64,000 nucleotides of DNA from Asterochloris sp. CNOR1 (lineage: Eukaryota > Chlorophyta > Trebouxiophyceae > Trebouxiales > Trebouxiaceae). Position numbers and translations under genes: made by a program. The stretch lies in the NCBI GenBank assembly GCA_963969365.1, contig OZ017750.1, positions 124,001 through 188,000 on the forward strand, given 5' to 3'. The number at the start of each line of letters is the position of its first letter. The first letter of the stretch is position 1. Below are positions 270 through 60,200 of this stretch, piece by piece. Below the pieces are notes generated by a model. It searched no databases and was not told where the DNA came from. It worked only from the letters and a program-made list of their open reading frames with translations.

Positions 270-3200
270 CTGCAGGGCAGCCAGAGGCAGGACGTCAGGC
301 GCTGCCTGCCGACCTGCACCTAGGGAGAAGAAGTGGCAGTCACCTAGAGCCAGAGAAACCATTGCAGGGCTGAGGCTCATATGTGCTGTAGCAGGAAGCT
401 CTACGGGGCAACTGTTGTTGCCACCGGCAAAATTCCCAGATCATTCTTAGACATGGCACAGGCTTGGGAACAAGAGAATTTGGTCAACAACCAGACTGGC
501 AGGTAACATCTGCCAGATGTCATGCTGCCAGTGCTGCAGTCACCAAGCTTGACAGATCACATCCCATCAGCACATCTGGGCAGCTGTAGCAGCGCAGTAC
601 CTGCATGGGTTACGGTAAAGATGCACAGTACTGCTCATGACAGGCCACACATGCATGTCCTTTTCTTCCAGAGCCATCTGTCAGTTGGAAGCTGGCACAG
701 CGATGGATCTGCTGCAGCCCAGAGGATGGAACAGCAGATGCCCGGCAGCTGCATGCCTTGCTGATGCTGGTCAGCTGTCTCCAGCAGGGTGCCCGCACTG
801 TTGCTGTGCACAATCTAAGCGCCCATGAATGCCAGACCATTCTCAGCGCCTGATCAGATGGTGCCTGCGTGCCTTTGAGCACATGTACAGGACAGCACCC
901 TGCGACAGGCAGCATGATCACGCTCACCGCTCGCCGAGCCCGGCCGTCCAGGTGCTGCCACGCAAACCCAGCTGCAGAGAAGGGCGGCAGTGCCTGGTAG
1001 GGCAGCTCCCCTGCACAGCAGACAGCCAGCTCTCAGGTCTCAAGCCCAACAGGCAGGCTGCAAGCTTACCATATAACACAACAGTCCGAAAGCTCTGGGC
1101 TGTGAAGTCCAGGAGTGCAGCTTCCATGCTTTTGGTACAGCAGTACCACAAGCGTGTCACAGCCAGTTCTTGGGATTGTCGGCAGCGCTGTCCTGCCAGC
1201 TCTGTTCTGTGCATCAGGCTCATCTGGCTGCACATGGCAGATGTCCAACAAGGTGGCCCAGTACCACTTGTGACACCATTCATGCCATTTGTCACCTTGC
1301 TGACCTGCACGATGGACCAAGAAGCAAGAATGATGATAAAGCATGTCCAGGCCCCCGCACCTTGCCGCATCGACTGGCGGTAGCGGAAGGGGTGAGCGGT
1401 GCGATTCTCAAGCAGGTAGGGCGGCTTGGGGGACACGCTCTCCAGCACGAAGTGCATGCACCCGGGGCTGCACAGCTCCAGGGAGAAGCGCAGGATCACC
1501 ATCTCCACCTCTGGGGAGCTGCCGCTGCCCTGCTGCTGCTGCTGGCTGTCCCCAAGCCTGCAGGGCATGCGGAAGAAATGAAGCATGGAATGGTGCACCT
1601 GAGGTGTGGATAATGCACTGCAGCCCAAGCCTGGAGGGATATTGGCAAAGCTGGAGCATGGACTTGTGCTGCCGTGCATGGCAAGCAGCCCCTGAGGTGT
1701 GCACCGGAGCCCCAAGCCTTCACAAAGCAAAATGGAAGGGTGGGAGTGTGGACTTGTGCTGCTGTGCCAGGAGAACAGCACCTGAGGTGTGCACAGTGCA
1801 CTGTGGCAGGCTGACAGCAGCACTGAGAGGTGCGCCTTGGCGACGTCTGTGCAGCTCAACTGCAGCGTTGCTGGCTCAGGCGCCCCCGATGTTCGTGGGC
1901 AACCAGCTGAGATTGGCATCGACACCATGCTGAGCACATCTACTTGGAGACCAAGCAGCCAAGCCACTATGCTGACAGGCAGCTGAGCTCACTAGTGGGC
2001 ATGGCACTGGTGTGATTGGGAGATGCGCTTGGCCACGTGCCATCCATGCCGTGCCACCGCTTTACTGACAGCCTTTGCTGACAGGCAGCTGTGCTCACTG
2101 GTGTGCATGGCAGATGCGCATGGTCGTGTGCCACGGCAAGCAATCTGTACGCTGGCAGGCACTATGCTCTCACTGGTGTGCATGGCGGATGCGCTTGGCC
2201 ACGCGTGGACCATGCAGCTCAAAAGCCGGCCCGGTGCCCGTCTGAAGAGTGCTGACAAGGCGCAGGTAACCCCCATCTCCGCCCTTGCCGTCACCTGCAT
2301 GCAGGCAAGTGCTGCTTGCCACAGGCTGAGGGATCGCAGTCAAAGGCAGCGCTGCCACCTGCGTGCAGGCAGGTGCTGCTTGCCACATGCTGAGGGACTG
2401 TACCAACAGGTTCTGCAGCAGATGCCATGGAACATTCTTGACAGGAGGACACATACACAACGCTGACTGATCTTGGACCCAACAGGGACATGTTCTTGTT
2501 TCAGGGTCTCTGTCTGTTGCCATTGATTCTGAAGGCTCAGGCTGGGATAGAGGCAAGTCAGCCTTACCCTGCTGATCCTTGCTTGGCACCCTCACAGGAA
2601 TGGCCACATGCTGGTCGGCCTTCCCGGCTTGGCCAACCTGCACCGAGTGGCTCCAGGGGGCCGACAGGTTGCTGCGGTCCTCGGGGGTGAAGCGTAGGCA
2701 CACTGCGCGCTTGTCGGTGTGCAGCGCCCAGTGGAGGGGGATGCCAGTGGCACCTGCATGATAGCTCCATGCATCACTGGTACGCACACGCATGCTACAC
2801 AGTTGGCACGCGCGACCTACCTTTCATCTCATCCTAAGGCAAGCAAACACAATCCCTACACCAGCACCTACTCCAGCTAGGGCAGATACTGTGCATCAAG
2901 CTCCAATGGTTTCTGCTCCATTTCACATAAGGCAGATGTCAGAAGCTCCGGCCAGTCCAGTCCCTGGCAGTCAGACCTGACACTGGACACAAGCTGTGCC
3001 AGTCAAGACTCTGACGGCCAGGCTTGCCTGAGGACACAATCCCTGAGACACAGCGGGGGACGTGGGGAGCTGCCAAACCCCGGATCCAGCCAGCTGCTTG
3101 CTGGTCAGGCGTCTTGTGGAAAGGCAGCATCACTACCTACCTACAGCCCAGCTACTGAAGGTAGCACTGTTGTATGCACACAATCCCCCGGTGGCAGCCA

Positions 3201-6200
3201 GGCTTGCCTGCAGGTAGCTCCAGGCTGGACTGCCAGTCCAGGCCGGTGTCAGGTAGGGCGGCCCGCAGCCCCGGGGCACTGGCTGTGGCTCGCACTGCTC
3301 CCTGCTGTCTTTCCCTGGCGGCTGGCAGGGTGCCAGCGGACTGCCTGCCCAGCTGGCGGGAGACGTCCTGTGTGCTGGCATGCATCAGCTGCAGGGGGAT
3401 GCCCGTACGGTTGGACACCACCGTGTGGTGAGCAATGCGCAGGGCCTGCAGCACAGGCACAGTGCTGGGGTGAGGGGCCACGGTCTTTGACAGAGCCTTG
3501 CTGCCAGGCCAGTCTTGTGGGGGTGGTACCTGGCCTGCACGTCACTGCACAAGCAGCAAAGTAGCTGGCAAGCAGGGGCACAGTGGCACACAGCAAGCCT
3601 GGCAGATGGGGTCATCTCAGGCACAGCTGAATAGCCTGTCAACACAGCACAGCCACCTGAAAGCATCACAATGCACCTCGGCATCCGTCCCAATGCTGGA
3701 CGTACGGCAATTGCACTGTTGCCAGCGCCAGGGCTGAGAAATAGTCGAGCCTCCAGTCGCCCCGAGAACTCACCAGGGTGCGCTCAAAGCCGCGCCCGAC
3801 CAGCTCGGTGCGAGCGACCACCTCGTGCACAGTGCCCCACTCGGGGATCTTGGCACGGATGAGAACGGGCTGCGTGTTGAAGTCCTCCACTTCCGAGCCC
3901 ACGCTGCCGTTCTCCAGGGGCAGTGGCCGCGTCCAGCCAGACTGCCCCACCTGCGGCACAAGGGCAGCACATCGAAATGCTCCGCACACTCCGAAGTGCG
4001 GCCACCTCTGCTGGTGGAAGAGCAGCCTGGGTCTGCCCATGAGGTAGGGAGGACTGAACTTATGAGCTGCCAGTGCAGGTGGCAGCCTGTGCATTGCTGA
4101 CAGACCGCAGGATGCCTGTGATGCCATACAGGCACCGCTGCCTGGAAACATGGTGACCATACACAGTGGCATCTGTCATGCAGCAGAGCAGGGCAAGCAG
4201 CCAGAGGGACATGGATAACTCTGAGCAGGCCCCAGGCCAACCTTGAGGCAGAGCCCAAAGTGCTGCTGACGCTCCCCCTGCTGCTTGAAGGCTGCCAGGC
4301 GCTGCATGGGGTAGGTCATCATGGACACCTGGCCAGCCTCCACTTGGCGGGCGCCTGGCGGCAGGTCCTCGGCCTGCTGCCTGCAGGTGCAGCAGAGCAT
4401 GGCTGCGCACTGTCCCGGCTTGGGTGTTGTTGGTTTTGGGGGGAGGGTGCATGTAGGTGCAGGTCTGGCCTGGGGCATTGTGGGCCTCAAGGGCACAGGG
4501 GCCCACCCCAGCTGTCTAGGTGCACACTGGGGGCCAGAGGGGCCTTCATGACACGCACAAAATCATCACCAACACTCTGTATCTTCTGCACCCCAACATC
4601 ATCCTAAACAAGCTCGGTGTCCCTTACAGCTGACTGGCATGACCTATGTTGTGAGTCACTGCACAAACCTGCCTGACAGCAGGATGACGCTTTGATCAGC
4701 TGACCACTCCAATGGCTCTTCCGGTCGCTTATCAGGAAAAAAGTGAGTTGGTCAAGCTTCCGCAGCCCTTCCCCTCACCTGGGTGCTGTGTCCATGATGC
4801 GCAGCTGAGCGCTGTCAGCTGCCTGCTGCAGGCCGCCCTGGGCACTGCCCTCCGCGGCCTCCTTGGGTCGGGGAGGGGGCTGCGTGGCCACCACCACCGC
4901 AGCCACCGGCAGGTTGGTTGCGTTGACCAGCCACAGGGGGACGAACATGCGCACCAGCAGGGGCGCCCCCATGGCCACAGCTGCCCCTGGGTCCAGCTGC
5001 TGCTGCTGCAGGGCAGCGCAGCGCAGGGTTGAGATCACTAGCAGGGGTATGATCAGTAGCAGAGGTATGATTGCCCATGATACAAGGTCGAGCTTGAGGC
5101 AGCCTCTGCCCAGTCAGTCAAGGGTGCAAGCAAAAAGAATGCAATTTGCGCAGCGGGCTATCAGGCGATGAAGCCACAGCAATTCACCCGCATGTGCAGG
5201 CAAACACGCACCCAGGCAGCAGCTTTCGGTGAAGTTCAACGCCTGAGCCAGAAGACGCGAGCTGTCTTGGGTCCAATCTGGTCACAGGCTGCCTGTGTGT
5301 GCATTGCATTGTTTGATCTATGAGCCCCCTCACCTTGTCGTTGCCCTCCAGCATCCAGGCGTCAAGGTCAATCTCCCGATCCAAGAAGATTTCCTGAGGC
5401 AGTTGCCCGCCAGTGGACACGTTGAACTTTTCGGGCAGCTGCTGCCGCCCAGAAGACACTCCAGCCTACAACAGGGATTAAAAGCATGTCGTGCCCTTCC
5501 CTGAGAGAGTGGCACCAGTCTTTGCAGATTTTGGGGGCCGCACTGGCTGGTCAGCAGGGCTGATGTGTATGACCTCCTGAAGAGTTCTTTTCCCTTGACC
5601 ACAGGGATATTGGTCTACCCTGCAAAGCACAGCACGCACAGCCAAGGCTGCATGCTCATCAGACCTATTTTTGTTCAGGCGGCACATGCATCCAGCAAGC
5701 CAAGCCTCTTTTTCCTTAGGTCAACCAGAGTCAGCTCTGTCCGCGCTCTGCCTGACCAGGGCTAGCCACAAAGAAATACACGAATGCCCACCCGATGGGA
5801 GGAGTAGCCCTCGCTGATCAGCACAGGGGCATCCTCCACCAGGTCGTAGCGGTCGGGGTAGAATTGCAGGGACACTGCACGACGGGTATCGGCCGAGTAG
5901 ATGTGGGCGCGGCGGCCGCTGTCCACAGTAGCGCTCTGCCGCAGCACCAGGTCCACACCATCCTGCAGGACAGTAAAGGAACCTGTTGGCAGGCGTAGGT
6001 CACATGGCAACTTGGAGGCCCCACCAGGGACGGTGTGCACAGGTCGGCTTCATGCTCTGTGAACACTTGCCATGCAGATGAGCTCAATTGACAAGCATCT
6101 CTTTGCCAATGCCTTGCTGCCTTGAGAGCATGTGCAGCAGAGGCAAATGAACACGGCGGCCACTAGAAACTTCTTCATCTTGGCAGCAATTGGAAGCATG

Positions 6201-9200
6201 CAGCACGCTTTTGCCAGGGATTTTGCCCCAACACCAAGCAGATGCCCGTACCAGGCCTCTGGCCACATCATGCAGCAACAGGCTGCAGTCAGGCAGGGAG
6301 GTGTCCACCTCCTTAAAGCTTGCCCCGCACACATGCAATGCAACTGGCCTGTATAATGCAGCAATTGAATTGCAGTCAGGCAGGCTGACACCTACCTTGG
6401 GCTTCTCCCAGACCAGGTAAGTGCCGGCCACCGGCAGCTGATTCTCCAGAACCAGGGGGGCAGCTGCCACTATTTTCCAGTCGGTCAGGGGGTCATACTC
6501 CTGGCTGCTGCTGGGGAAGGTGTCAGCGTCCACCGTCAGGCTGAGCCAGATAGGGCTGGCGGCCAGCTTGGAGGCCAGGGTCTTGTTGTCCTGGCTCACT
6601 GCGTCCTTGCCTGCAGAGCAGTGCTTTGGGTGAGGGTCAGTGGTACCCTCATAGCCTGCGGCAGTCAAATCAAATGCTTCGGGGGGCTTGGCCTGCCTTC
6701 TACAGGGCACAGCTGCAAGCCAAACAACCTGCCTTCTGCACGGCACAAGGCCCAGACCTGTGCTTATAGTTGGCCAAGGTTATTGCGTCTGAACACCACA
6801 TGCACAGCACACCACGGCCGACAGGCAGCCAGAATCACACTGTAGTCCCACATAAAGACTGCAGCCTGGCTCACAAGCTAGGCACCAGCAAAAGACAAGG
6901 AAAATTCTCGCGGAGGCTGGCTACAAGATGCATGCTAGCAGAGGGGTGGCACACTGAGACTGCTTTGCCATACATCCACTGAGTGGTCTTGAGCCCCGTT
7001 TGCATGCCACTCAGCCTCCTCAACACTCCCAGATGTGAAGCTGGGCCACCAGACCCTGCCTCCTTCACACTCCCCAGCCCAAAACTGTCTGCACTGCCCA
7101 CTCACCCTTGGAGGTGGCCTCAGCCGAGGGCGGGCAGGCCACCAGGCGCGTCATGCCCTCGTCCATTGCGTCCAGGCGGATTGTGTGGTCCCCCTCGCTG
7201 GCACCAATGCTCCAGCCGTGGGTGTCCGGGTTCTCGGAGTCCAGCACCGGGCGCACCTGCAGGGTCAGCAACCATGGGTGTCTGGGTTCTCTGAGCTCAG
7301 CACCTGTTTACTCAGCCGCAGGGCCCGGCCAGCTCGGCAGTCAAACCCTTGTCCAAGGTTGGCACAGGTGCAAGCTGCCAGGACAAGTGGTGCCGCAGCT
7401 GGTGGGCATCCCCACAAGACAAAGGCGCAGCACCTGACTGTGCAGGTCCTGCAGTGCAGCTATCAGCCACTGCCGTTCTGCAAGAGGAAAGGAGCTGTGG
7501 TCCCAGCTTGAAGTGCAGCGTGCAAACGAGACCTGTCCAGCTGGCATCAGGGGGCAACTGGCTTGCAGCCTCAGACACTTCAGATGCCAGGCCGCATGGC
7601 TGCTGCCATGGCATCGACCTGCAGCACTCGCGCAGCCAAGCAGGACACTACTGCACCAAGGGCATGGTGCACCAGATAAACTTACCTGCAGCTGCTTCCC
7701 TGCACTGCGCCAGCCATAAGGCACAGACAGGGACTCCCCCGGCTGCACAGTGCCCAGCACGATGCGCTTGCCAGGACGCTGCTGTGCAGCTGCAGCCATC
7801 GACCTGCAGCAGCAGACAACCGTGCCTTGGTGACATGGTCGGCTCAGTACAGCGGCTTGTGCAAATGCTGCTGGCAGACGAAAGACGTTGCAAAAGACCG
7901 TCCAGCATTTACAATTTGAAGTTCAAGCTTGCCACAGGGCAGCGTCTGTGCCCCGGCTGCATGAAGGCACTGCCTTTTCTTTTGATGCCCGAGGACCCAC
8001 CTGAGGGATGTGGTGCGGCGGCTGCTGTTCCCCTGCAGTTGAGCCGCGGGAGCGGGCCTTGCAGAGGACGGCGTCGGGGGTGCTGACCCAGCCAGGGACT
8101 CCCGTCGCCGGCGCAGCCACCGCCGCCGGCGCGTGAAGTCGCACAGCTGCTGCTTCTCTGCGCCCTGCAGGGGGCGGGGCATGAGAAGGGCACGTCAGAG
8201 AGCTGGGCACCAACACTGGATTCCCAGGCATGGCTGCACCCAGAGACAGAAAGCCCTGTATCACTCAAGTTTCACCCTTGGGTGGACCATGCCCACTTGG
8301 AACCTCAGGGTCACGATCGCTTTCTGGAAGGCCAAGGCAACAAATGTGTTCTCAACACCTCTTACCGGCAGGGGTGGCCAGTCCATAGCCCCAAAGTCGG
8401 GGGCGTACATCCACCCCTCCCTGTCCCTGTGAGGCCCCGTCTCCACTTGCCAGGGGCCTTCCCACTCCCAGCCTGATGGAAGGAAACCCGTACCAGTTGG
8501 TTGTTGATGGATGACCAGCACAGAGCTGGAAGTTGAAGCATTTGCTTTTGACAGTGCACTGTGGGTCGTTATCAGCACAGGTGTCATTGCGCTTGCGTGG
8601 CTGCATGCTGTCTCACATGGGCAGCGGCCCGCTTTGTTTGGCCACTGTCTCGACGCAGACAGGCAAGAATCTACATGCACAGAGCCGCCAGAAAGAAACC
8701 TCTGCCTCCGACCTTCTGGGGGGTCCACCTGCGGGAACTTGTGCTGGCTGCCAGACCCGTCCTCGTTGCGTGCAAAGCGCTTGCGCTCTGTGGGCAGCGT
8801 GCTGGTCCAGCCCCGCACCGGGAAGAAGCGCTGGTGCTCCCACACCTCCTCCTCGACAGCCTGGCCCCCGCTGGCCCGCTGCAGGGGAAGCAGAACGGGT
8901 GGGTGCAAAACAAGTCTGTGTGGGGAGTCTACATCCACAAGCAGGTGGGACAGCAGCAGCAATTTTATTCTGGAGGCATTCTGTTGACCCCGGGCTGACT
9001 CATGGGGTGAGCCAGGTTTGGAGCGTGGCAAGCACTGCACCCAAGCAGCGCCACTGTGATGTTGTGAGTGCACAGCAGTTTGACAACATCATTGGGCATC
9101 AAGCTGCCTATGTGTGTGACTTGCCTTCTGAACTGTCATGCTCCTGAAGCTCAAACTGAGCGTAGCTGTGCCCACACCATCCCATCCAAAGAAGCATCCG

Positions 9201-12200
9201 GGCAGAATGAGCAGCCCTCCTGCCTCAAGTCAGATTGTTGAAGCCCAGCATGATGCACAGCCCTGTTGCAATCTGTTTTCATTCTTGCCCAAGACATCAA
9301 CCAGTGCGCACACCTGCTGAACCTCAAGACAGCCTAGACAGACTTGTGAGGTCACTGCAGATTGCTGCCCAACAGAACGTCAGGCCTTGGCCAAGCGCTT
9401 TCGAGAAATTCGCTGAAGAGCCTGTCCAGGCGGTGCTGCTTGTACCAGGGACAACACATGCCCTTGTGTTGTCACTAGCACAAGCGGTCCCCCTGGCCAG
9501 GAACAGCAGCTGCCTGTGCCTGCACAGTCCTGGAGCATGCTGCCCCTGCGGACCGTTTGAGATGTCCAGCCATGCAGCCACCCTACCTGAGAGAGCTGGC
9601 GCTGCATCTGCAGCTGGTGGGATGACATCGAGCGCGCCTGGCGGGGCAGCATCTGCCAGTCCTCCTCCGGCTGCTCCATGATGCAGATCTGCACACAGGG
9701 CACAGGCAGGCCATCACGGACTGGATTAAGAGGAGCGAGGCAGGCCACACCCCCGCTGTCAATGCTCCTGTAACCCAGGATGGGTTATGCCGCAGGCAGC
9801 AGCGTGCTGCTTTCAAACTGCCACCCTGCTGTCAGGGGAACTCTGTTAGGTCTGCGCGTGCCTCGAGACAAGGCAGCAGCTTGAGTCCACTCAGCCTTGA
9901 GACTGCACAGCGCATTCTCTCGACAGCACAGGAGGATGGCACAGCCCACACAGAGGGAACATCTGCCCCCTGTCCAGGAATAGCAACCCATCGCCACCCC
10001 TTGCCCTGCCACCACGCTTAAGGGTGGTTGTGGCCATCCACTAGGAGCAGCTTGTTGAGCCCCGAGCGATACAAGAGTGCCCATTGCCATCCCAAGATTG
10101 CGGAGTGAGACCAAGGGCTTTGCACTAGGTGCCACCAGGCCTGACACCTTTGTTTGTGCTCATGAATTCCGGAGGCCTGCACAGAGCATGGCAGCCCACC
10201 CCTTGTCCTGCTGCTGATGAATGCAAAGAGCGAGCACAGAACGAGACAGCCCACCTCCCACCCCCTGCTTGGTGGCGTTGATCGGAAAGTTGCACACCTC
10301 CCCCTGCTACCCTGCTCATGATATCCCAGAAAGCATGCACAGAGCAAGCCAGCCCCTCAGCTTGCTGGCATCAATGGGAGAAGCAGCAACCCACTTCCAC
10401 CCCTTGCCCTGATGATGACCAATATATAAAACAATAGTAAACAAAGCGTGCACAGAGCGAGGCAGCCCACCTCCAGCGCCAGCTTGGTGGTGTTGACCAG
10501 CTGACACAGGGACCGCAGGACCTCGTGCTTGACCCCCTGCCGGAAGTTGCTCTCCAGGGCGACTCCGCCGTCCGCCAGGCGCACAGGGGTGACTGTAGCT
10601 GCGGTGGCCTTCTGCTGGCGAGAGCCCTTGAAGTGGGTGGCACAGGGCAGTCAGCACTCATAGTCAGGCTGCCCTTGCAATTGGAGTTGGTTATCTTCAA
10701 GGTCTCCAAAGTCAAGTTGCCCTAAACAGTTATGAGTGACTCCTGTACAGGTCAGTTGATGGCCCTGCCACTTGAATGACAACCAGCAATCTGGGCCCTG
10801 TACATAGCATCAGAGGCGTACCGCAGAGATCTTCTTCCCTGCCGCCTGCCCCCGCTGCAGACCCTGCTGCGAGAGCACCACCCAGCGGCCGTCAGGGTCC
10901 ACGCGCAGGGCGCGCTGCCCTGCCGTGCTGACGCGCTCGGTCCAGGCATCTGTGTGGATGGAGCGCTCATCCTCGTGCTGCAGCGCCAGGGTGTAGCGCA
11001 CAGACAGGGAGCCCCCAGCCTGGCCCTGCAGGCCAAGTGCAGAAATGATCAGCAGGGGCAAGAACTCCTCAAATAACTACCCTTGAAGGCAAAGCACTGG
11101 GGCCATCACTAGCAGAGCAGTTCTGCGACAAAGTTGATGTTTTGCTGATTGTTGCAGTGTTTGTGTAGGGCACCCGCGGCTCGAGACCATACGACTTCAA
11201 AACCACAGGACGATGCACGACACACAATGATGTATATACATGTTGACAGCCTGGGGACAATGGTAAATATGGCCAGGGTATCTTGGGCTACCCGGGAACC
11301 AGCAGCAGTCAAGGATGCTGCTGCAAACTTCTGCTGGCACACTGACATCAGGCCATGTGCATGCCAGGCTAATTTTCTATCAAAGACACCACCATCTTGA
11401 CCAAAGAATGCCACTGACCTTCTTGGCCTTCAGCTGGAGAGTGGCACCATAGGTGGCGTTGCTTTCCCAAGCCTGCATGTTGAGGTCTGCCTCTGTCTCG
11501 GCCAGCACAACGCCCCTGCCAGCCTCTGCAGCCGTGTCCAGGAGCTGCAGCTGCAGTGTGCCAGACGAGCCTGCAGGAAAAGGTGAACAGCAAATCCTGA
11601 CGCACGCTCCTTAAACACCCAGATGTTGCTCTGAGGACACATGACAGGTCCTTCATGCACAACTATTGTGGAGCCAGCCTGCCAGAGACAGGCAGCCAAA
11701 AGATGTCTGCACACTGCTACTGCAGCTGGCACATGCACAGGCCTTCCAAAGGCCGCATGGTGCGCTACAGTGGTCCTCAGGCAGAGACCACGCGTTGGCT
11801 GACCACGTGTGCACAATGTACTGCAGCTAGAGCATCCACAGGCATATGCTCCATACGCAGCATGCTGCCCTGTGTGTTGCCTCACCTGCAGCCCCTGGCA
11901 ACTGAGCAACAAGACGCTCCGCCCATACAGCCTCGCTGTTGTCGCCGACACGGACGGCCCTTGTGCGGATCCTTGAGGTCTCTGCAGGCACAGGTGGTCA
12001 TGCGCTGAAACACATTTGCGAAGGCCCACACCGGCCCTGATGTTGCGTGGTGCTGCAAATGTTGCTGAGAACAGCACCCTTAAACTCTTGAACACATCAG
12101 TGCATGGCATGGGCAAAGAATCAGGAAGTTCCCATTATTATGTGTTTTCAAAGCAATACTTTCCAACAACCATCATTGCAGCGCGCCCTGCACTGCAAAC

Positions 12201-33200: not shown

Positions 33201-36200
33201 CGGAGAAGAACCAAGTTCAGCTGGCAGGTGAGCAGCAAAAAGCATTGCAGCACTGGTATGAGCTGGTTGCAACTGCATTACAACCAGATCATACAGATGC
33301 TGCATGACCTGAAGCCCCCCCCCCACCCCCGATGGATTCAAGGTCTGGGCATAGCTGGTGTGAGCTGGTCGTGGTATATTCTGAAGGCTGTGGGTTTATT
33401 GGCACCTGCAGGAGTTTAGGGCCTTGTGTTCTGTGGCGACATGTTGTTACAGCAGCCTGAAAGCCATGTGATGCCACCTCCTGCTTCTAGCAGCAGGGTC
33501 TTTTGTTACTGCGAAGCTGGTGCTGGCACCTTGCATGGTAATAAGTTTTTCAGAATGCCGCCGCATCACAAAGACACACCACCATGCAGGTTGCTACCCC
33601 TGGCTCCACAACAACAAGAGGCCTTGCTGGAAGCAGCAGTGGATGGCAGTTGGTATAGCTGTCCAGCCGCTGCAACACACCGTCACAGCACACACAGCCT
33701 CAGGCCTCTGCGTGGTGCTGAGCACTTCCTAGTTTCAGGTGGCAGGCAGAATTGGAAGCGCTGGTGGGAGCTGGTTGCAACTGCATCACAACCAGATCGT
33801 CACCCGTGCGGCCAAGCCTGTAGCCCCACGCACTTGCCAGCTGATGCGGTATCTGCATAACGCAGTACCATGCACGATGCCATCCCCAGCTTCACAGCAA
33901 CAAGAGACCTTGCTGCTCAAAGCAAGGATTGGCAGTTGCACATGGCTGTCATGCTGCTGCAACACCTTGCCACGGCACACAAGGCCCCAGCCTCCTGCTA
34001 GTGCTAGAAGACCCTCTCATTTCAGCTGGCAGGTGGGCGCCTATAGGTCTGCAGCACTTGTGAAGAAACTGGTTATAATGCAGTTGCAACTGCACTGCAA
34101 TCAGCTCACACTGATGCTGCCAAACCTGAAGGGGCTCCCACCTGCCAGCTGATCCAGCATCTGAAAGACTCACTGCCATGCACATTGCCTTTCTCTGCTT
34201 CTGGCAGCAAGACCGTAAGAAGCAGAGAAAGCCACAGCATGCATGGCAGTCCAGCTTCTAGAACACGTTGTCGCAGCACACAGGGCCCTGGGCTCCTGCT
34301 GATGCTGAGCACCCCCCAATTGCGCACTGTACCACCATTAGGTCCCACCTGAAGTCACCCAACCCTGCCAGCTGGTGTGGCACATGCAGAGCTCACCACC
34401 ATGCATGATGTTGTTTACCTTCACAGCAACAAGAGGCCTGGCGCTAGAAGCCAATCCAAAAACAGCATGGCTCACTTGCTGCAACAAGTTGCCACAGCAC
34501 ACAAGGCCCCAGGCTCTTACTGGTGCTGGCAACTCTCCAAATTTCATAAGGGACTGCAAGCAGCTCTCGTCGATGCTGCCAGACCTGAAAGGCCCTCCTC
34601 AGCCCTGCCAGCTGATGCGGCACCTGCAAGACTCCCCAGCTCCACAGCAACAACACGCCTTGCTGCCGTGGCTGGCATTCGGCATGGCTGTCACGCTGTC
34701 GTGATACGTTGCCACGGCAAGGCCCTGGGCTCCTGCTGGTGGTGATTAAGCCCTAATCTCAGCTGGCAGGTGGGGTGCAATAGGTTTGGCAGCACCGTGG
34801 GAGCTGTTTGCAATTGCATTGCAACCAGAGCGCCACCAGTGATGCTTCGCCTGAAGCCCTCCCCATCTTCCAGTGGATGCGGCATCTTGACCACTCATTG
34901 CCATTGCATGATGCCGTCCCTAGGTCCCACAGCAACAAGAGGCCCTGCTGCTAGCACTCGATGATGACGCGCAACATGGCTGTCAAGCTGCTACAGCACG
35001 CCGCTGCAAAGCACAAGGCCCCAAGCTGCTGCTGAGGCTGAGCAACCCGACGATGCCACCTTGTACTGCAACCAGCTCCCGCCAGTGCTGCGTAGGGCCG
35101 CCCACCTGCCAGCTGCTGCAGCATCTGAAAGACTCACCACCATGCAGGATGCCATTCCCAGCTCCACAGTAACACAAGCCTTGCTGCTGGAAGCAAGGAA
35201 CGCTCAATTGGCATGGCAGCGGATTTGGCTTCTGAGAGACTCACCACCAAGCACAACGCCATCCCCCAGAGACAGATGCTTCACAGCAAGAAGAGGCTTT
35301 TCTGCTAGGAACAGAACACCACATCCGAGAGAGTTACCATCATGCAGGCCAAAGTTCACAGCCATAAGAGGCCCTGCTCGTAAGAGCGGAGAAACACAGC
35401 CAGCTGAACATGTCAACTGCACAACTCACTGCCATGCACGATGCCAGCTTTCCACACACAGCAAGACACTTGTTGGGTCAGAGTTGTCTGGCATATTGTG
35501 TCCTGGCGATCCGGCATCGTGTTGCAACAGCTTCACGGCCATGGTCATGAGGCCAGCCCCAGCTCACACGAACAAGAGGCCTTGCTGCCAGAAGCAGTGC
35601 ATGGCATTTGCGCATGGTTGTCCAGTTGCTGCGACACGTCGCGGCGGCACACAAGGCACCAGGCTCCTGCTGATGCTTGGAAGCCCACAACTCAACCTTG
35701 TACTTCATGTAGCTCCCACCAGGGGCCCCCACCTGCTAGCTGATGCAGCATCTGAGGGACTCACCGCCATGCACGATGCCCTTTCTCTGCTTCTAGCAGC
35801 AAGACCTCTAAGAGTAGAGAAAAACAGCGCCGCTCATGGCTTTCAAGCTTTTCCAACAAGTTGTCACAGCATACAAGGCCCTGGCTCCTGCTGGTGGTGA
35901 ACAACCCCCCATCGCACACTGTGCCACGACGAGCTCCCATCAGTGCTGCCAACCCTGAACCCCTCTCCCCAATCTCCCAGCTGATGCTGCAGCTCATGCT
36001 GCATCTGAAAGACCCACCACCATGCAGGATGCCATCCCCAGCTCCACAGCAGCAAGAGGCCTTGCTGCTAGAAGCCAGGGCTGCCATGGCTGCATGAAGA
36101 TGTCTCCAAAGCAGACAAGGCCTCGGGCTCCTCGTGGTCCTGAATAGCCAGCTTAGGATTAGCAGCACTGGTAGAACTTGGTCACATTGCATTGCAACCA

Positions 36201-48200: not shown

Positions 48201-51200
48201 ATAGGTTGGCTGTCAAGCCTGCATGCATGATTAGCCACCTTGTGGTACCACCTGTGTGCATATTTGCACGCATAGGGTTTCAGACCCTGCTGGTGCATCA
48301 CTCTTGCAAGCATCTTGCCATGCGCCAACACATCGATGGCCCCACCACCACAAAGCCTGCCATCACAGGGCTCAGCATTGACAGGGACATGGCTGTGGCA
48401 TTGCACTCCTCAGAGTAATCATGCTGCAACTCAAAGATGTCTCCCAGATGCAGCACAGTGCGCTGCGAGAGGTGCTTGGGTGCAACAGCAGCCACACAAA
48501 TAGGCCACAACTCTCGACTTGTGCTCAGCGCAGACTGCACAGGTGCAATGGCAGGCTCTGTGCATGGAACTGCGGGATGCCATGTCCAGAAGCCTTGCAG
48601 CCACCCTGCTGGTGGTCACGGGGACGATACACGGCTGGACTTGCTGCTAGAAGCAGGAGACGACCTCATATGGCTGTCGAGCTGCTGCAGCACACCGCCG
48701 GAGCGCACACAGCCCCAATCTCCTGCCGGTGCTGAACAGCCCCTAAGCTCAGCTGGCAGGTGGGGCCCAACAGATTTGGCTGCGCTGGTGGGAGCTGGTT
48801 GCAACTACATCACAACCAGATCCTCGCCCACGCTGTCAAGCCTGGAGCCCTAACCACCTGCCAGCTGATGCGGCTTCTGTAACCATGCGCCACCATGCAC
48901 AATGCCATTCCCAGCTTACAGCAACAAGAGGTCTTGCTGCTAGAAGCGATCGACGACATTCTTGCATGAAGGCGTCTCCACAGCACACAAGGCCTTAGGT
49001 TACTGCTGGTGCTGAAAAGCTAACCAAGCTTTAGCAGCCCTGGTGGAACTTAGCCGCATTTCATTGCAACCAAGTTCCACCTGTGCAGCCATGGCCCCAA
49101 CCTGCCAGCTGATGCGGCACCTTCAAGACTCACCACCATGCAGGAAGTCACTCCCAGCTCCAGAGCAACAGAAGGCCTTGCTGCTAGAAGCACTGGATGA
49201 CTTTAGGCACGGCTGTCAAGCCGCAGCACAGTGCCAGCTTGCAAGGGACGCCGTGAACCTGCCAAACAGTTGCTGAGTCTGCTTGCTGTGTGGAACAGCA
49301 ACATTGCAGAGGCCTTGCAGATCGGCAGGGCAGGGCACGATTTGCACAAACAGGGACAACCCTGGGCCTCGCTCATGCTGAAGGGGTGATCTTGACACTC
49401 TCAGACTCATGTCAGTACCAGCCTGGCCCTGCTGGTGTTAGCATGCGCCAGACGGTCTGCCAGGTGTTGGCAAGTGCAGCCTGCCATTGTCACACAGCTG
49501 GTTTGCTAAGCATTCAAGGCCTCCATGTCACACGAACAACCAGAACTCTCATGCATCTGAGCAACCAGACACGGCCTAGAATGACTGCGGCGACAGGTCT
49601 GTCACCTGCTGAAGAATCCCACATTGCTGAAGGATAAAGGAGACCTGCCAACACGATGCCTTCCCTAATATGCAGCCCAGAGAGGGGTGTCTGCTGCACA
49701 GAGATCCGAGTTGCCCTCATGCCCATTGACATCAACTGTGGGTGCCTTGCTGGTAGTCTGACAGGGGTGTCCAGCAACCGACTGCTAACCCTCAACACCA
49801 GCTGCTGACTTCTGGCTCCTGCTACATTGACAGTGGATCCAGAGCAGCCCAGCCCACAGGTGGGTCACATTGCCCACATCATCACCGCTGCTGACAGCGC
49901 GAAGGCCAGCCTGCACAGCAGTCCACCCTCTAGAGTCCCCACCCACCTGTTGCTCCAGGCGTTGACCGTGCGCGCCACACTAGCAGCCCCCTCCCGCTCC
50001 TGCAGGTAGAGCTTGCCGCGGTAGAGGGAGGCAAAGTAGCGCTGCCACTGGGCAGTGGAGTACCCGATGCCCCCCCAGGTCAGAATGCGAAGGGAGCCCG
50101 TCCTCTCAGGGCGCAGGCGCCAGGCCTCCAGGCTGGCCGGCTGCTCCTGCTGCCCCTGGGCGCCCTCCTCAGCAGCTGCAGGGCAGGCAGCTGGGGGTGT
50201 GAGTTTTTGGGGCAAAGGGTTCAGGGTTTAGGGATTCTTGGGGCGCAATTGCCAGACGTCCAGGCTGGCTGGCTGCTCCTGCTGCCCTGCTGGACAGCTG
50301 CAAAAGCAGGCAGCCAGAGCTTCCAGCCTGTTTGGGCAATTCACATGTTCCTTGGCTGTGGGTACCCGTGCAGAGCAGTAGGGTCATGGATGCCTGCGTC
50401 TTGCGTGAAAAGCTGTCCTTGCCAACCGTACATGCAAAGTAAGTGTGGGTGGTGGGCTGGACTGGGAGGGCAATATGGTGGTGAGTTATGAGCAGACTGG
50501 CGGCCGCTGCATTACAGGCTGTGATGCAAGTGTTGATCTCTATACTGGAAGATGAACAACACTGTGCAGAAGCAGCCAGCAACAAGCAGAGTGCAACTTA
50601 GACTGAGACCTTGGCAAACAGGCTGAACAGTGACATTGGGGGTGTGCATGCAACTGAGTTCAGGCAAACTTTGCGCAGTGATCGCCCACCTGGCATAACT
50701 GCTTCAATGGCCCTCATGACACGCCCGATGCGGGCAGGACTGAAGTAGAAGCGCAGTTGGGGGACTTGCAGCTGCAGGCGAATGGGTGGCAGGGTGGGAT
50801 GCGGGAATCTGGCAGCCTGCAGGGCTGCTGAGGTGCCGCAGCGCTCCAGCAGGGGGATGAAGACAGCCGAGCCGCCCAATGCCACGCCATCGGCCTCAGC
50901 GACAGCCTGCAGGGCACAACCGTGACAGCTCCTGACTTGGACTCCGTATTGGGCAGGTGAGTCTGCAGCCTGCAGGGGCATGATCCTGGATGCGCTGCTA
51001 AGGGAGAAACGCTTTGGTAAGGCCAAGCCTTCCCACCAAGCGGCAAGACTGTGTGGACAGGAACCCCAGCAGCAGTCCGAGTCAAGCTGCAGCGCTGTAC
51101 TCCATAGACCCCGCCCAAAGTTCACAAACACAGCACAACTGCATCCCACTCCATGTTGTTTGACAGGACACCCACCTGGCCATTGGCCTCACTGACGCTG

Positions 51201-54200
51201 ATATGCCAGCAGGGTAACAAGTGTTTGCTCATTGGCTCCATGCAGCGCAACCCCTTCAACACCTCACCTGGCCAATCGCCTCGCTGACGGCTGACCCCTC
51301 GGCAGGGTCAGCTGTCTGCTGCTTGGCAGCCTGCTCCTCCAGGGCAGCGAAGGTGAAGTCGCCGTCCACCACGTATGCTGAGATGTCACGCCCCTTGAGG
51401 GTCAGGCACTCATACACTGAGGCCTCCTCCACTGGCAGGGTGGCTGCCAGGCCGGTGTCGCTCTTCAGCACAAAGCGTCCGAAGTCAGCCACCAGCATCA
51501 GCTTGCCTGCAAACAGCCAGGCATCTGTAAGTGAGGCAGCAGATTCTGTGCAGGCAGATGGTTTTCGAGAGGATCCACAAGCGACGCGCACATGGCCAGC
51601 ACCTGCAGCGGATTGCATTGCTGCAGCAAAGCTGTGTCCTACTGCCTGTTGATCAGTGTCTGGCAAGCTGTGCTGTTGTTGCAAAGCCACGGCTGTGGCT
51701 CAAAAGACATGGCGTCTGCGCAAGGACAAATGGACGTCTCCTGGGCCACAATGGGGTGGTAGATGGCGACAACAGCAGAAGCCAGGCATGGAGCAGGACT
51801 CAAGACCTGTCACCAGACTGACAGGTGCCATGTAGCATATTTGTTGGGGCAGCAGTGCTCCGCCCACACGGCCCCTCAACACAGCCCTGCAACCAGCACC
51901 AGCTCCAGGCATCTGGACCCCTCTTCCGTCATTGCTGGCTGCCGGCGGAGCACAGCACTCTTCACCGGAGCCCAGATGCGCAGCCAGCAGCCCCAACAAG
52001 CAGCACCATCAACCCTCTCTGCACAGCTCACCTCGTCCATCGACGGTGGCCGGTACAGGGATGGCGATCTTGGGCGCGTCCAGCTCGAGGGACAGGTCCA
52101 GCCGGGGCTTTTGGCGGATGGCAGCCGCCAGCTGCTCCGCTGCAGCCTTGCGGGCACGCTCCACCTGAGCAAGGGCCTGAGCACCCAGCGCTGACAGATC
52201 CACTGCCTGCAGTGGACGGCGAGGGGCTGGGTCTAGTCATGCTGAATCAAGCACTTTTGCCAGGGTGCACTGCTCAAAAAGCCAGGGCCTCAGCATGCAT
52301 TGCTGATGGCTCCACTGCCTCGCAGCACCTGAGGAAATGCTGGAGTTACAAACGGAGACTGAGTATCCTTGGAGGTAGAAGGGGAGTTGAGGAGGGGGAA
52401 ATGCTGTGCAGCATGCTGGAAGCCACAAGGGGGAGTGAGCCCTGGCACACAGCTGGGCTATGCTCAAGAGACAGACAAGGGCTGAGAGGTTCCTTTCCTG
52501 GGCATCCAGCTTTGAGAGGCCCACAGCCTGCAGGGCAGGGATGGGGCTTGACATGACTCCTAGCTGCGCAGTGAGGGGTGCATGAGGGCATGCTAGGGGC
52601 AGCGTGCAGGCGGTGGGTTTTGTCACGGAAGTGAGGTCCCCTGCCTGGAGGAGGAAGGTCATGTGCAAGTAAATAATGTCAACCTGTACAGAGCGGCTCT
52701 GCTATGATCAGCCATTCAGGCTCAGCTGGCTTTGCAAAGGGGCTGCAGGAGGAGACGCGTGCAGCGCCACTGCGACACGTGCACCCTGCGGCAAAGCATG
52801 CTGCTGATCAGCTCAGCCTGGACACAGTAGGTACAGGAGTGGCTGACTGGCATGGCCCCCACTTGCACTGGCCTCAAGATTGCGGAGCACGGGTGGCCTC
52901 ACCTGCCCCGTTTTGAAGAAGGCTGAGACCTTCTGGATGGTGCTGGCGTTGTAGGTGACATAGCTGGGGCTCAGCCCTGCCCGGATGACGGTGTCCGCGC
53001 TGCCATCCTGGGGTTTCTGAGTGTACCGCACAGTCAGTGCCTGGCCGCTGGCGGCAATGCCCTCCATGTCGGTGCCTGCAGGAGCAGCAGGGACATCAAG
53101 TCTGAGCAGTCTCCTCCTGGTGGAGTCATGTCACGACTGGCAAGGAGGACCCTGTTGAGCAGGTCATGAAGACATGCAGCAGGTGCTCATCTGGGCAGCA
53201 CATGGGACCAGAGCTGAGGCTGCTGCTCAGCACGCAGCGTGGATGGGCGGCACCACACCCTGGCCAGACTTGTGAAGGCGCTGCACGCAGCTCGCCTGAC
53301 CTTTCAGCAGCTCATCTGGCCGCGTCACACAACCAATCCCAGGGAATAAAGCAAAGATAGAATGTAAGTGGCTGGAGGGCACAATCTGAAGCGCATTTGG
53401 CCCTGACAGGCATCGACACTGTTTTACTTATGCCAGACCTTACACCCTTCAAGCAAGAAAGAATCCCAGGGCACCCACCTTCCAAGGCCTTGGCGCTGAC
53501 AGACCGCTGCATGGACACACGCCGCAGGTCGGTCCCGGTGCGGATGAGCGTCCCCTCGGGGGTCACGCAGCCCATGGCCTGCACCGCCGCCACCACCTCC
53601 AGGGTGGAGGGGAAGACTTTGACTGCGGACTTCAGGTCGTCCAGGGCAGCCCGCAGGATCTGCTGTCCCTGAGGGTCGGTCAGCACCAGGGCGGCAGAGC
53701 CTACGTTGACGTTGAGCTTTGTACGCAGGTTATAGGGCGTCTCCTTGCCTGCAGAACCAGAGTGGGATGTGTGAGACCATCACAAATTTGGGATGTTAGC
53801 CTGAGACACACGATGTGGCAGGCTCTGAATGCTTTACAACGGCCAGTACACTGCAGGTGAAGGCAGTCTTCGCCTGCACAACATGAAGCTGTCAAAGCAT
53901 GTATCAGAGGGCTGCGCTGTAGCAGCAGGCAACAGCTCCAAGGCTGTCAGGCACACCCCATCACTGCTCAAGCTGCTGGATGGAGACTCCCTGCCGGCTG
54001 TAGGCAGCCTCTAGGGGCCCCGGCAGGGTTCACCACGCGACTCACCAGCCTGGATGGCTGCCTCCTGCTCGTCCACCAGCTCCTGAAGCTTGGCGTAGTC
54101 CTGCTCACTCAGATCACCCTTCAGCTCAGGGTCCTGGTCCGGGTCGCCCTCCTGTCCACCCTGCAGGGTTTGCAGGGCTGTGAGTCAGCTGCTTCACAGC

Positions 54201-57200
54201 ACAGTGTTGTGGGCCACCGTCTGCTGTACTGTGAGGCAACCCCATTGACAGAGACAACCTCCAAGGGATCAGCTGGGGATGACAGCACAACATGATGGGG
54301 CCCTGACAGCAGGAAGCATGCAAGTAGCTTCCCCTATCCACCCTGCAGAGCATAGGGGGGGACACTGCTGGTAATGCATGTAAGGGAACACTGATGGTAA
54401 TGCATGTAAGGGAACACTGATGGTGGTAATGCCTGGGGGTGGTGGCAGGGCCTGTCAACATGTAGGAGCCACATGGGGAAGGACAAAGTCAGCATTCAGC
54501 CTCCATGGCTGAAGGGTGCATGGTGCCACAGCGCGAACCACGTGCCAGCCCTGCAGAGCTTTGCAGGGCTGGGAGCCAGCTGCCCTAGACCCACAGTCTT
54601 GTGGACCATCATCTGCTGTACTGTGAGGCTGTACTGTCAGGCACCCAATGAACTCAAAACACCTCCAAAGATGATCTGGGGATAACAGCACAACATGAGG
54701 GGGGCCTGACTGTAGGGAAGCATGCAAGTAGCTTCCCCTGTCGGGCTGCATGTGTGGCATGACATGGAGCTGTGCTGTGCCCAAAACGCTCTGCTAGCAA
54801 GGGCAGTATTAGGTTCAGCAGGCTGCCCTGGGTTTTGCTGAGTCACTCAGCTGATGGCTCATGCCAACAGATACATTGAAGTGCATGGCAGGGACTGTAC
54901 AAATTCTGCATTTTTGGTGGACGCTGCCCAGGCACCCTGCGGGGCCGACCTTGTTGCCCCCGCCAGTGAGCCAGCCAAACCATCCAGATCCCTGCTGGGC
55001 ACGCTTCTCAGCCGCTGCTGCAGCCGCCTTCTTCTTGTTCTCTCGCTCCACCTGCATGACACAGACGCAGAGTGAGGGGCGCACACAATAATAGCTGCAC
55101 ACTTATGGAATTCGTGAAGTGCCTTGCGTACAAATCTTCATTTGCACGAACCGGAAGCCATCAGTGCTGACAGCAATTGCATGACGTGAAGTGAAGCAAG
55201 TCAAACAGCTTCCAGGGATGGGACATTGTGGCCGTGACGCTATTCAATAAAACTTTGGTTGCTGCTGACTGGCATAGGAAGGCTGCTGACTGGCTTAGGA
55301 ATCTCAGACAAGTTGGCAACTCCCTTGGCCTCAGCATCAGGTAATGCTGAACACTCTTGGCACCCGCTGCTGAAGACATGTGGAGCCTCAAGATGTACTT
55401 GTCTACAGGTGCTGCTGCCATAGAGTTGCCATCATGTCTGAGATGCAGGCAGCACTCTTAAGCCATCTTCTGGGCTATAACTGGAGTGGTCATCTCAGCA
55501 GTGATGGCAGCCCTAACATTGTCTGTCTGTTGGCCATTGTTACTGGCTGGTTACATGTCCTCAGGAGACCACAGTGCAGAGACCTGCATTGTCAACGGCT
55601 GGTCACCTGACCTCAGGAGTACAGTGTGCAGAGCACTTTGAAACTGTTGATTGGTCACCTGGCCCCTCTGAATGACACCGTGCAGATACCAGTCTGGGCA
55701 CCAGCTAGGTGTGGATAAGCTGGCCAGCACCGACACAGTCCAAGTGGGACACCCAGAACCACTGAGGCAGACCTCCCAGTGGTGCTGGGTGTCCCAGTAA
55801 AAACTGTGTCAGCACTGCCAGCTTGTGAGCGACACGCACTTGCTCACGATTGCTGACTTGCAGGACAGCTGCTCCACTGGATGTACTTGTCAAGCAACAT
55901 TGATGGAAGAAACGTCCAGCAAATACAAAGACAACCATTTTAAATGTGTATCTTAGACGTTCTTCCATCAATGCACCTCAAGGTCTGAATCCAGGCACAG
56001 TATGGTCTGGGCTGGATGCAGCAACGGCAACAGGTAGATGCGCCGTCGTCATGAACACCAGGGACAACTTAGTTGGAGGGATGAGCACACGGATGTTGCA
56101 GCACCGCACTGTAATCTTGCGCAGTAACTTCTGCTTGTGCTGATGCCCTCTGCCTGACTTGAGTGCTCTGCACAGGCTTCTTAAATCCATGGTATGTCTT
56201 GCTGTATGCCCCAGAACCCGTAGAAGAAGGCAGGGGCTTGACTCTCTCAGCCGAACTCAGTCAGCGGCAACTGGGAGCCATGACGGTGAGTTTGCATTAG
56301 GTCATGCAACCTCACATGTATGACCTCTAGTTGCTGCTGAGTCAAGTCAGCATGCATGTGAGGTTGCACATGATGGCTGTAGCGATGTTGCCATAGTGAC
56401 TGATCTGGTCAGCCTTGTGACGACTAATAGTTTCTGGGACCACATCCCTGTGTGGCCATCTGTGCCACCTCACATGCATGCTGAACTGACTCACAGCGCA
56501 GTTGCTGTAGTAACAGGGCTGTGTGGCCTTGTGACAATCGCTGCACTCATGGGACCACAGTGTTGCCCTCTGCTGCCACCTCCTCAAAACAAGCAGACAC
56601 CTGGACTTACTGCCTGCAGCAGCGCCACGCAGGTCCAGGGGCTATTACAGGCGCCAGACATGTGCCACAAGAAAGAAGCCAGCACTGCAGAGACTGATCT
56701 CATCTCAAAGACGACCACACTACTCATTGAGGTGTATGCAACAGAACTTACTCACTACCCCAATCACAGTATGCAGGTGCCAGCATGCACGCGGCCTTGG
56801 CCACTGAAGCCCCCAGCTGTGGTATATTAGTAGCGGACCTTTGTACAAGACAAAGTGCTCAAAAAATGGTGCCCGACCTGAAGGGCTGCTCGCCAGTCTG
56901 CCAGCTGTGCACCTAGTGGCGGTGCAACAGCTGTCAGCAGGCCTGGCTGACATGCAGAGACTGCTGCCCTCAGCATCTGCAGGCCAGGATCAATCCCCAC
57001 TGCGTGTCTGCACTACCCTCAGGATGCCCAGCCACAGCCAAGATGCAATGCTCATCCAGGGGTGCATGCCAGCCCTATCACCCAGAGGCTGAGCTGGTCA
57101 GCCTTGCACATCACAGCAGCGCAGACATGCAATGCCAAAGAGCTGCAAGTGCCACAGAAATTGACCTCTGGTCCCATGGCAATTGCACCACCTGGAACCC

Positions 57201-60200
57201 CTGTCTGCACCGCCACTTTTGGTGGTCATTGAGAGCACTATATTGGCCTGTGCATGGTGCCAAAGCAGCTTAGACCGCAAAGTGCACCCAGAACATGCCT
57301 GCAGGCCGCCGGATGACGCAGCTGATACCAAAAATCACTCAGGCTGCAGAGGCTGACTTTGCATTTCACCCTGCACAACCCCAACACAACAATCTGTTGC
57401 CACCTTTCTGATGAGGTGGCACTGAGCGGGGCTCCAGATGTCGCAAGCTCCAGCATTCAGACTGCAGAAGCTCACGGTGCGCTCAGCCTTCACAAAGTTA
57501 AACACAGCATTGTATTGCTACCTGTCTGCTGTGTCAAGAGCCATCTTGGTGAAGCTTGATGTGACCTTGACCCTACCATAGCCCAAGCACCAATTTCCAT
57601 GCTTGCCTCCAAAAGTGGCGACAGACTTGGCTTGGTGCAATCACACAACTTTTGCCTTTCCTTAGATGACTGCATGAAACCTAGTGTCTCCTGACAGAAG
57701 CCAGCCAGCCGTCTTGCTGGCCCTAATGTGCAGGTCAGTCACAGCCATGCTTCCCATGGGCACACCCCAGCATCCCTGCCAGCATCCCAAACCCTATATC
57801 CAAACCCTAGGCACCTTGAGCTCGGTATCCCCCTGGTAGCCCTGCCTTGAACGCAGCTAAGCAGCTTGGATTCTCCCTGTAGGTCTCCTCAGGCTATTCC
57901 ACTCACTTTGGAAGCATGATGTCCCAGCTACATGACGCGGCGTGGCTTGTGGCGCGCATTCCATGATGCAGAACCAAACAGACAGCGCAGTTCTGCAACA
58001 ATGGATGTGCCGGTGGAGGTCCTAGCCAATGCAAGCCTTGCAATGGAACAGAAGCTGCTTGCCACCCACACCCACCTTTGCATGCGCCAGCCGTCGGAAG
58101 AGCAGGATCGTGGACTCCGGCAGGTCGCGGTCCATGGCCGCAATCTCGTCGTCGCCGCCCATCTTGTCCTCCTGGAGGCACCTGCAGGCAGGAACAGTGC
58201 CAAGCAGGTTGCACACGTCTAGTAAAGAGGCACCTGCAGGCAGGAACAGTGCCAAGCAGTTTGTGCACAGATTGCGAGCTACAGTCAAGCAGGACCAGGC
58301 CCTACAAGATGTGCTCACCACTGCCTCCCAACACCCCACCTACTTGAAACAGGGGACGCACTTACGCCGCGGCTTCGCTCACCAGCATTGCAGCTGGATT
58401 GTGCTCATGCAGAACCTCTGTCTCTGGGCTGGCCCCTGGCACGGCAAGCTAGCCCCATCTGATACGGAGAAGCAGTGTACTTGCCATGACTTTCCCATCA
58501 AGGTGGCACCTGGACCATATGCATGGTCTTAATCCCTGGGCGGGCACCTGGCACTTTATGCCAGTCCCACCTGGTGTAGAGACAGACGTGTTGTTGCCAT
58601 GACTTGCCCATTGAAGTTGCAGCTGGACATGCCCATGTAAGACCAGGGGTGGCACCTGGCATTGTGAGTCAAGCTCACCTGATGTACAGGGGGATGTACT
58701 CCCGCCGCAGCTTGCACACAGTCTCCAGCTGCTTCCAGTTGAGGCTGCGCCCCTGCCTGGAGCGCGTGACGGCTGCCGCCGCATAGTGCCACCAGTGCAC
58801 AGCGCTCCTTCCAGGGCGCACGCGCCCCACAGGGCGCAGCATGCGGTTGGGTGCGCGGGCAGCGTAAGAGGAGAATTCATCCAGCAGGGCCTGGAAGCTC
58901 TGGTACTGAGGCTCTGCAGGCATGGCAGGGCCCAGGGCATATGCATGATGCCAGCTGGTCACAGCAGGGCCTTAAACAGCTTTACAGCAATGACCGTGCA
59001 GGCAGGGCAGGGTTCGTCACAGGAGGGCCTTACAAGCTCAAAAGCTGGGACACTACAGGCAGGGCAGGATAGCACTGGTCACAGCAGGGCCGTGACAGCT
59101 CTGGAGCTGGGACACTGCAGGCAGGGCAGGATACACTGGGTACAGCAGGGTCATGACGTTTTCAAGGCTGGAACCCTGCAGCAAGGTCAGGGTACCACTG
59201 GTCACAGCAGGGCCGTGACAGCTCTGGAGCTGGGACTCTGCAGGCAGCGCAGGCTACTACTGGGCACAGCAGGGCCATGATAGCTCTGGAGCTGGGACAC
59301 TGCAGGCAGGACAGGGTAGAGAGTGGGAGCTCTGCTGTTTGAGTCCAGCGTGGCTTACTGTCTCAGCAATGGCCATGGCGCTGATCTTCAGAGGCAGCAG
59401 CGGCATGTGTGCTTTTTGGGGGTTTGCTACGCACAGGCACCTGCACGCCTCTCCATAGGGCACACCGTCCTGTAGGACACTCTGATGCAGTGCCTTTGAA
59501 CTTGGGTACTGAAATCTTATCACAGGCAGGTAGGGACAAGCAAACTCAGCGTGCATGACTGGCTGATTTGGGACTTTGCAGCAGAGCGCTGCTGCAGGAT
59601 GCATGCTGCGGCAGCACTGGCTGGAACATGCCAGTAACACAGGCGTCCATTGCACCCTGCCACTTTGCCCTCGCAATCCATGCAGCTCCCCCGCTCATGG
59701 CTGCATGCCACACAGGCAGGCAGGCACGGAGCCAGGCAGGCGCCCTTTGCAGACTCACTCGAAAGCTGCAGGGAGATGCCCTGCAGGTACAGGTCGGCCT
59801 GCTGGATCGCGTCGGACTCGTCCCGGCGCACATTCTTGCCGCGCCGTACGTAGGTCAGCTTCCCGTCGATGGGCTTCAGGATGTAGGCCCGCTCCGGCTC
59901 AGGCAGCTTGCCTGCATGGAAGACTGGCAGAGTCATCTTTGAGGTTGGCCAGCTCGTTTAGGAGTTGGCCGCTCCATGTATTGCTCAGCACCTTGAGGGG
60001 GGCCCAGGCAACTTACAGCACAAACGCGAGGTACTTTCTGGTGTACACACTCATGCTGGCTGAAGATGCAGGCTCACCCCCAGCTCAGGCACCTTGCATG
60101 CAAGATACACAAGCCATGCAGCTGCATGCACTGGCTGGCAATGTGGGCTTGGCAGCTTACAGTGCCAAGAGGTCTGCAGCGGTGGCTAGCAACCAGCAGG

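Follow-up and report, generated by a model that had tools for sequence, protein, structure and literature searches.

Decayed local copies of exon-intron junctions in a VPS13-like gene of Asterochloris, probably a by-product of short same-strand duplications

We analyzed 64,000 nucleotides of Asterochloris sp. CNOR1 (positions 124,001-188,000 of contig OZ017750.1, in an assembly of 56.4 megabases and 21 contigs), hereafter the window, which our gene finder read as essentially one minus-strand, VPS13-like gene with 81 predicted exons, some of them low-scoring. Several introns of this gene contain additional, partly decayed copies of an adjoining exon-intron junction. These copies are confirmed as real and, as a strong tendency, are local, have the orientation of their source and occur on both the donor and the acceptor side. 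Their placement is close to random, and they are probably, for the most part, a by-product of ordinary short same-strand local duplications that happened to run across an exon end. A junction-specific explanation is not needed, although a mild enrichment at junctions is possible.

Direct local duplications that span junctions were visible by self-comparison of the window. For each junction, 60 exon and 60 intron bases were compared with its own intron, the score being forced through the junction and calibrated on other introns. At p<0.01 a same-orientation copy was present within the own intron for 12 of the 121 window junctions, which lie in 11 introns; at p<0.05 the number was 18. The reverse-complemented intron, used as control, gave 3 and 4, respectively. 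This bore out the decayed extra junction copies described by the original prediction. Further scans covered four regions, namely the window and three control regions of 100, 100 and 60 kilobases (kb) on three other contigs; predicted exons scoring below 8 were dropped before all counts (below 5 in the blast-pair survey of junctions). With 167 introns of 300-2500 bases and exon flanks of at least 50 bases, 31 of 334 junctions matched their own intron at p<0.01; 3 matched a different intron, 3 the reverse-complemented intron and none the reversed one. With introns of 150-2500 bases and exon flanks of at least 20 bases (474 junctions), 15 of 237 donors and 18 of 237 acceptors were copied at p<0.01, versus 3 and 2 with the reverse complement. 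Approximately 7-9% of junctions in the four regions thus carry a copy at this threshold (33/474; 31/334). The claim that copies always adjoin their source, in the same orientation and on both sides, therefore holds as a strong tendency. Junction copying recurred in all three control regions, so that absence from other genes, named by the original prediction as grounds for rejecting it, does not apply. Exons 58679-58913 and 44593-44716 are copied at both ends, exon 20158-20502 has about three copies of its acceptor, and exons 13206-13459, 10471-10611 and 2174-2294 are examples of copied donors (Table 1).

The distance between copy and source, determined for 33 copies, had a median of 127 bases, an upper quartile of 196 and a range of 73-430, and of 66 clusters 44 were spaced at 60-160 bases, the median spacing being 113. 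In 32 pairs of exonic and non-exonic sequences, mismatches numbered 63, 68 and 99 at codon positions 1, 2 and 3 (of 434, 434 and 431; p=0.006 versus evenness). We read this pattern as that of a constrained source paired with a free copy, and the copies thus appear to decay like noncoding DNA. Of the 15 donor copies in the p<0.01 set, 10 retained GT, and of the 18 acceptor copies 12 retained AG; splice dinucleotides in the copies had an identity of 0.80-0.81, versus 0.72-0.74 at intronic anchors.

Clean tandem repeats were found among the pairs, with shifts of 63, 82, 90, 110 and 112 bases, while many other pairs consisted of a short similar patch only. Of the 24 best pairs with at least 84% identity, 11 covered less than 0.4 and 5 at least 0.8 of their spacing. 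We considered that the copies might be short separated patches and not tandem units, but this was weakened by the likeness of spacers to flanks, and the pairs had been chosen for high identity. In 36 gapped pairs, spacer-flank likeness had mean z values of 1.63 and 1.37, versus 0.01 for a far control, -0.17 for reversed and 0.50 for reverse-complemented sequences; a z of at least 3 on one side or the other was reached by 9 of the 36 pairs, versus 2 of 36 in the controls. Clusters of up to three pairs entered both the patch-length and the spacer-likeness analyses. As spacers resemble their flanks more than controls do, decayed tandem duplication would be the likeliest common origin of clean and patchy pairs.

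We asked how often duplications meet junctions. In introns of at least 260 bases, 15 of 185 donors, 18 of 185 acceptors and 74 of 925 intronic points were copied at p<0.01, a net junction/intronic ratio of 1.13 (confidence interval [CI], 0.65-2.04). Blast-detected duplications in introns of up to 2500 bases spanned 12 junctions at 40 bits, where random points in these introns led us to expect 12.5; admitting weaker pairs of 30 bits gave 16 versus 19.8. Of 40 independent clusters, 28 had the same anatomy and spanned no junction. In a profile around the exon end, the p<0.01 ratio was 1.55 (CI, 0.91-2.93) for points 25 bases into the exon and 1.17 (0.67-2.23) for the junction itself. Random placement over the whole region predicted 20.9 spanned junctions in the window at 40 bits (standard deviation [SD], 5.6), versus 9 seen, a shortfall of the kind expected if exon hits are selected against. 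Exon centres were rarely copied into neighboring introns at p<0.01 (3 of 208, versus 2 of 208 for the reverse complement), as expected if the copies stem from duplications overlapping an exon end. Hence, the proposal that introns grow by duplication of their junctions stood in part: introns gain length by local same-strand duplication, which in some cases includes a junction, but at the stricter cutoffs junctions were copied about as often as any intronic point.

As the original prediction proposed, duplication might instead be directed at junctions; breaks, nicks or slippage linked to splice motifs or transcription would be the means. A number of observations do weigh against inclusion by chance. 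At p<0.05 the junction/intronic ratio rose to 1.97 (CI, 1.13-4.26), and the profile around the exon end gave 1.67 (1.03-3.07) at 25 bases inside the exon and 1.75 (1.07-3.31) at the junction. When clusters were moved randomly within their own intron (up to 2500 bases), 12 spanned junctions were observed versus 7.8 expected (SD, 2.3) for the 40 independent clusters, and 16 versus 10.7 (SD, 2.8) for 86 clusters. In an anchor profile of introns of 400-2500 bases, with exon flanks of at least 40 bases, copies were found for 36 of 210 anchors placed 20 bases into the exon, for 24 of 210 placed on the junction itself and for 89 of 1,050 placed at intronic offsets of 40-200 bases. Outside the window, 20 of 240 junctions versus 37 of 600 intronic points were copied at p<0.01, and exon centres at p<0.05 gave 15 of 208 versus 6 of 208 for the reverse complement. 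The three bases preceding AG were 0.91 identical in the 18 acceptor copies, versus 0.74 at intronic anchors. Chance inclusion also leaves the high duplication density of this gene, described below, unexplained, and the gene model behind all counts is a self-trained prediction from the DNA sequence alone.

Much of the excess at junctions can be accounted for otherwise. An exonic source is under selection, so that pairs made of it and its copy would stay recognizable for longer. In a simulation of decay that assumed an exonic rate of 0.2 times the neutral one, slower exon decay alone yielded an excess of 1.25 at the junction and 1.38 at 20 bases inside the exon at p<0.01, and of 1.19 and 1.35 at p<0.05. 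Most of the junction excess is therefore explicable without targeting; the ratios of 1.97 and 1.75 at p<0.05 lie above the simulated 1.19. With no clear excess at stricter cutoffs and most clusters of the same anatomy lying clear of junctions, we regard preferred duplication at junctions as unlikely. We likewise give little credence to the idea that junctions in this lineage are truly favored for short tandem duplication, by up to about twofold beyond the effect of slower exon decay; if they were, junction-linked breaks and their repair would lengthen introns and add spare splice sites.

The retained GT and AG dinucleotides would suit copies that are still in use, as alternative or mutually exclusive exons. 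Nevertheless, the mismatches by codon position fit a noncoding copy without coding constraint, and use of the inner site would yield an in-frame open extension in 3 of 33 copies (a raw count), which makes this explanation highly improbable. Local tandem duplication is plainly active in the region and would suit an origin of the introns through tandem copying of exonic AGGT (the Rogers model), but in 250 introns the donor region resembled the acceptor region of its own intron no more than that of a different one (score of at least 12, 6 versus 5.71 expected; at least 16, 0 versus 0.55). The introns are therefore not visibly of such an origin, and we attach next to no probability to it. The same applies to dispersed intron-making elements (introners): three long introns of the gene do have common collinear sequence, but junction copies are local, with 3 of 334 matching in another intron, and in a search scoring only the best candidates three array segments had no match beyond the locus and a fourth had none beyond its own intron.

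Local direct duplications are several-fold denser in the VPS13-like gene than in the three control regions. At 40 bits or more, 115 direct versus 16 inverted local pairs were found in the window with its flanks (84 kb), whereas the three control regions (100, 100 and 60 kb) had 16 versus 0, 22 versus 0 and 16 versus 0; at 30 bits or more, the numbers were 178 versus 42, and 38 versus 2, 46 versus 1 and 39 versus 0. Local duplications covered 17.7% of intron sequence in the window (flanks included), versus 1.4-3.6% in the controls, and introns of 400-700 bases were also richer in them (11% versus 0-4.5%). Part of this density is due to three very long introns, 30333-36544, 40999-44153 and 45444-49414, with common collinear, internally repeated sequence, mostly 65-83% identical, which starts and stops inside the introns. 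The three segments of this sequence that were searched for had no match elsewhere in the assembly among the best candidates scored. A transposon origin of these arrays found no support; five of 16 open frames listed in intron 30333-36544 had no Pfam match at E 0.1. Positions 17306-19742 form a large decayed array within one intron, and a 575-base segment of it had no match outside the array in the same kind of search. No Rfam match was found in the window.

For inclusion by chance, the course is probably as follows. Short same-strand local duplications, best regarded as decayed head-to-tail tandem duplications, arise in all four regions, with the copy mostly 60-200 bases from its source, and are retained chiefly at sites where the harm is slight, introns in particular. 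Where a breakpoint happened to fall in an exon near its end, the copy would include a piece of exon and a splice site. If the outer, original site continued to be used, the mRNA would be unchanged, the intron would be longer and the inner copy would decay as noncoding DNA. We infer that the outer splice sites are used, and that the duplications result from break repair or slippage.

The individual copies are listed in Table 1. The exon numbers of the original prediction presumably correspond to our gene model once eight predicted exons, mostly low-scoring, are dropped. On that footing, 11 of the 15 exons that it named as sources of copies were supported (8, 11, 15, 17, 19, 44, 45, 49, 55, 70 and 71), among them exon 11 only at p=0.0109 and with little exon in the copy, exon 17 with the copied splice site gone, and exon 45 by a blast pair alone. 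Two were recovered in part. Exon 39 (23266-23521) had a donor match at p=0.044 and a blast pair that joins an exonic stretch to the junction, so that the copy sits in the exon; exon 61 (7106-7256) had an acceptor match at p=0.038, equaled by the reverse complement, and an entirely exonic 36-base copy. The copies assigned to exons 9 (acceptor p=1.0, donor unlisted among the matches) and 62 (6396-6610, not among junctions with p<0.05) were not found.

Table 1. Junction copies and other features of the window
Feature	Position	Strand	Evidence
Acceptor junction of exon 1361-1557 and copy, breakpoint 1630	1361..1630	-	p=0.0084
Similar local duplications not spanning a junction by 10 bases: 1653-1794, 1967-2112, 2292-2397	1653..2397	-	83-93%
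Donor junction of exon 2174-2294 and copy 2077-2123	2077..2198	-	85.7%; p=0.0084
Donor junction of exon 10471-10611 (10445-10496) and copy 10229-10281	10229..10496	-	84.9%; p=0.0036
Donor junction of exon 13206-13459 and tandem copy 13065-13157	13065..13238	-	78.5%, shift 82; p=0.0012
Acceptor junction of exon 13804-13920 and copy, breakpoint 14024	13804..14024	-	p=0.0011
Acceptor junction of exon 15294-15489 and copy 15689-15718	15471..15718	-	93% over 30
Acceptor junction of exon 20158-20502, 3.2 copies of ~110 bases	20457..20815	-	80-84%; p=0.0029
Donor junction of exon 44593-44716 and abutting copy 44482-44542	44482..44605	-	80.6%, shift 63
Acceptor junction of exon 44593-44716, 2.4 copies of 90 bases	44685..44901	-	89.8%; p=0.0019
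Start of exon 49947-50175 and copy 50241-50287, splice site of copy lost	50109..50303	-	87.2% over 47, source entirely exonic; p=0.0068
Donor junction of exon 51268-51506 and copy 51168-51236	51168..51327	-	74.6%; p=0.0015
Intron end at acceptor of exon 54046-54160 and copy 54549-54742	54159..54742	-	76%; p=0.0109; copy retains AG; blast pair nearly exon-free
Donor junction of exon 58679-58913 and tandem copy, shift 112	58421..58689	-	70.4% over 162 columns; p=0.0022; copy retains GT
Acceptor junction of exon 58679-58913 (58882-58929) and three intron copies 59082-59130, 59205-59253, 59267-59316	58882..59316	-	80-82%; p=0.0118
VPS13-like gene (predicted)	111..63575	-	Gene finder and Pfam; extends past low end of window

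The gene model was produced by a home-made, self-training gene finder; its first training set was the window plus two 100-kb stretches of this assembly, and later training also took in the window flanks (10 kb) and a 60-kb region. The predicted gene is open at both window ends and, with 10-kb flanks, extends about 8 kb beyond the low end; the exons predicted upstream of 63.6 kb may be part of a different gene that the gene finder joined to it. The N-terminal part of the predicted protein matched Pfam VPS13_N (E=2.2e-60), and a later part gave a weak match to VPS13_VAB (E=0.00025), below the cutoff of that family. The splice consensus of the gene finder was MAG/GTGAG for donors and TGCAG/G for acceptors; the latter overlaps CTGCAG, a word found 3.35-4.12 times per kb in the control regions and in the window with its flanks, versus 0.31 expected by base composition. 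A near-pure G run of about 37 bases lies at 22457-22493 within the gene.

The closest precedent for the junction copies of the VPS13-like gene appears to be the "mirages" of amphioxus, described as tandem repeats across the 5' or 3' exon-intron boundary with units of tens to 160 bases, in some cases in several copies, many but not all of which retain AG or GT (PMC3902484). According to that source, normal splicing is undisturbed and length varies between haplotypes; a globin example has 81-100% identity, and copies in amphioxus PGBD5 are imperfect too. Three of the four features compared are shared, as in both systems the boundary is spanned, both sides are involved and splice dinucleotides are often kept. 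By distance, at least half of our 33 copies (median 127, range 73-430) fit the mirage unit of about 10-160 bases. In contrast to the globin example, mostly one old copy is present here, at about 62-90% identity. In a potato RdRp gene, a local tandem duplication likewise crossing an intron-exon boundary and bringing splice signals with it was reported, with RNA reads, to have made a new intron and exon (PMC4974935), whereas the copies described here appear to remain within the old intron. Intron gain of the Rogers type, by duplication of an AGGT-containing exonic segment (PMC4974935, PMC2891723), also involves local tandem duplication with splice motifs, but the donor-acceptor likeness that it predicts was at chance level here. 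Repair of breaks with 3' overhangs yields small tandem duplications (PMC8355091), which are similarly short and tandem; there they were demonstrated at induced breaks, whereas here such an origin is only surmised.

Our literature search found no earlier report of boundary-spanning tandem duplications in this kind of genome, and the present analysis documents duplications of the mirage type there, with controls. Random local duplication combined with selection largely explains their placement and provides a null model against which claims that junctions drive intron growth can be judged. The copies also constitute a natural set of spare splice sites, usable for studying splice-site choice.

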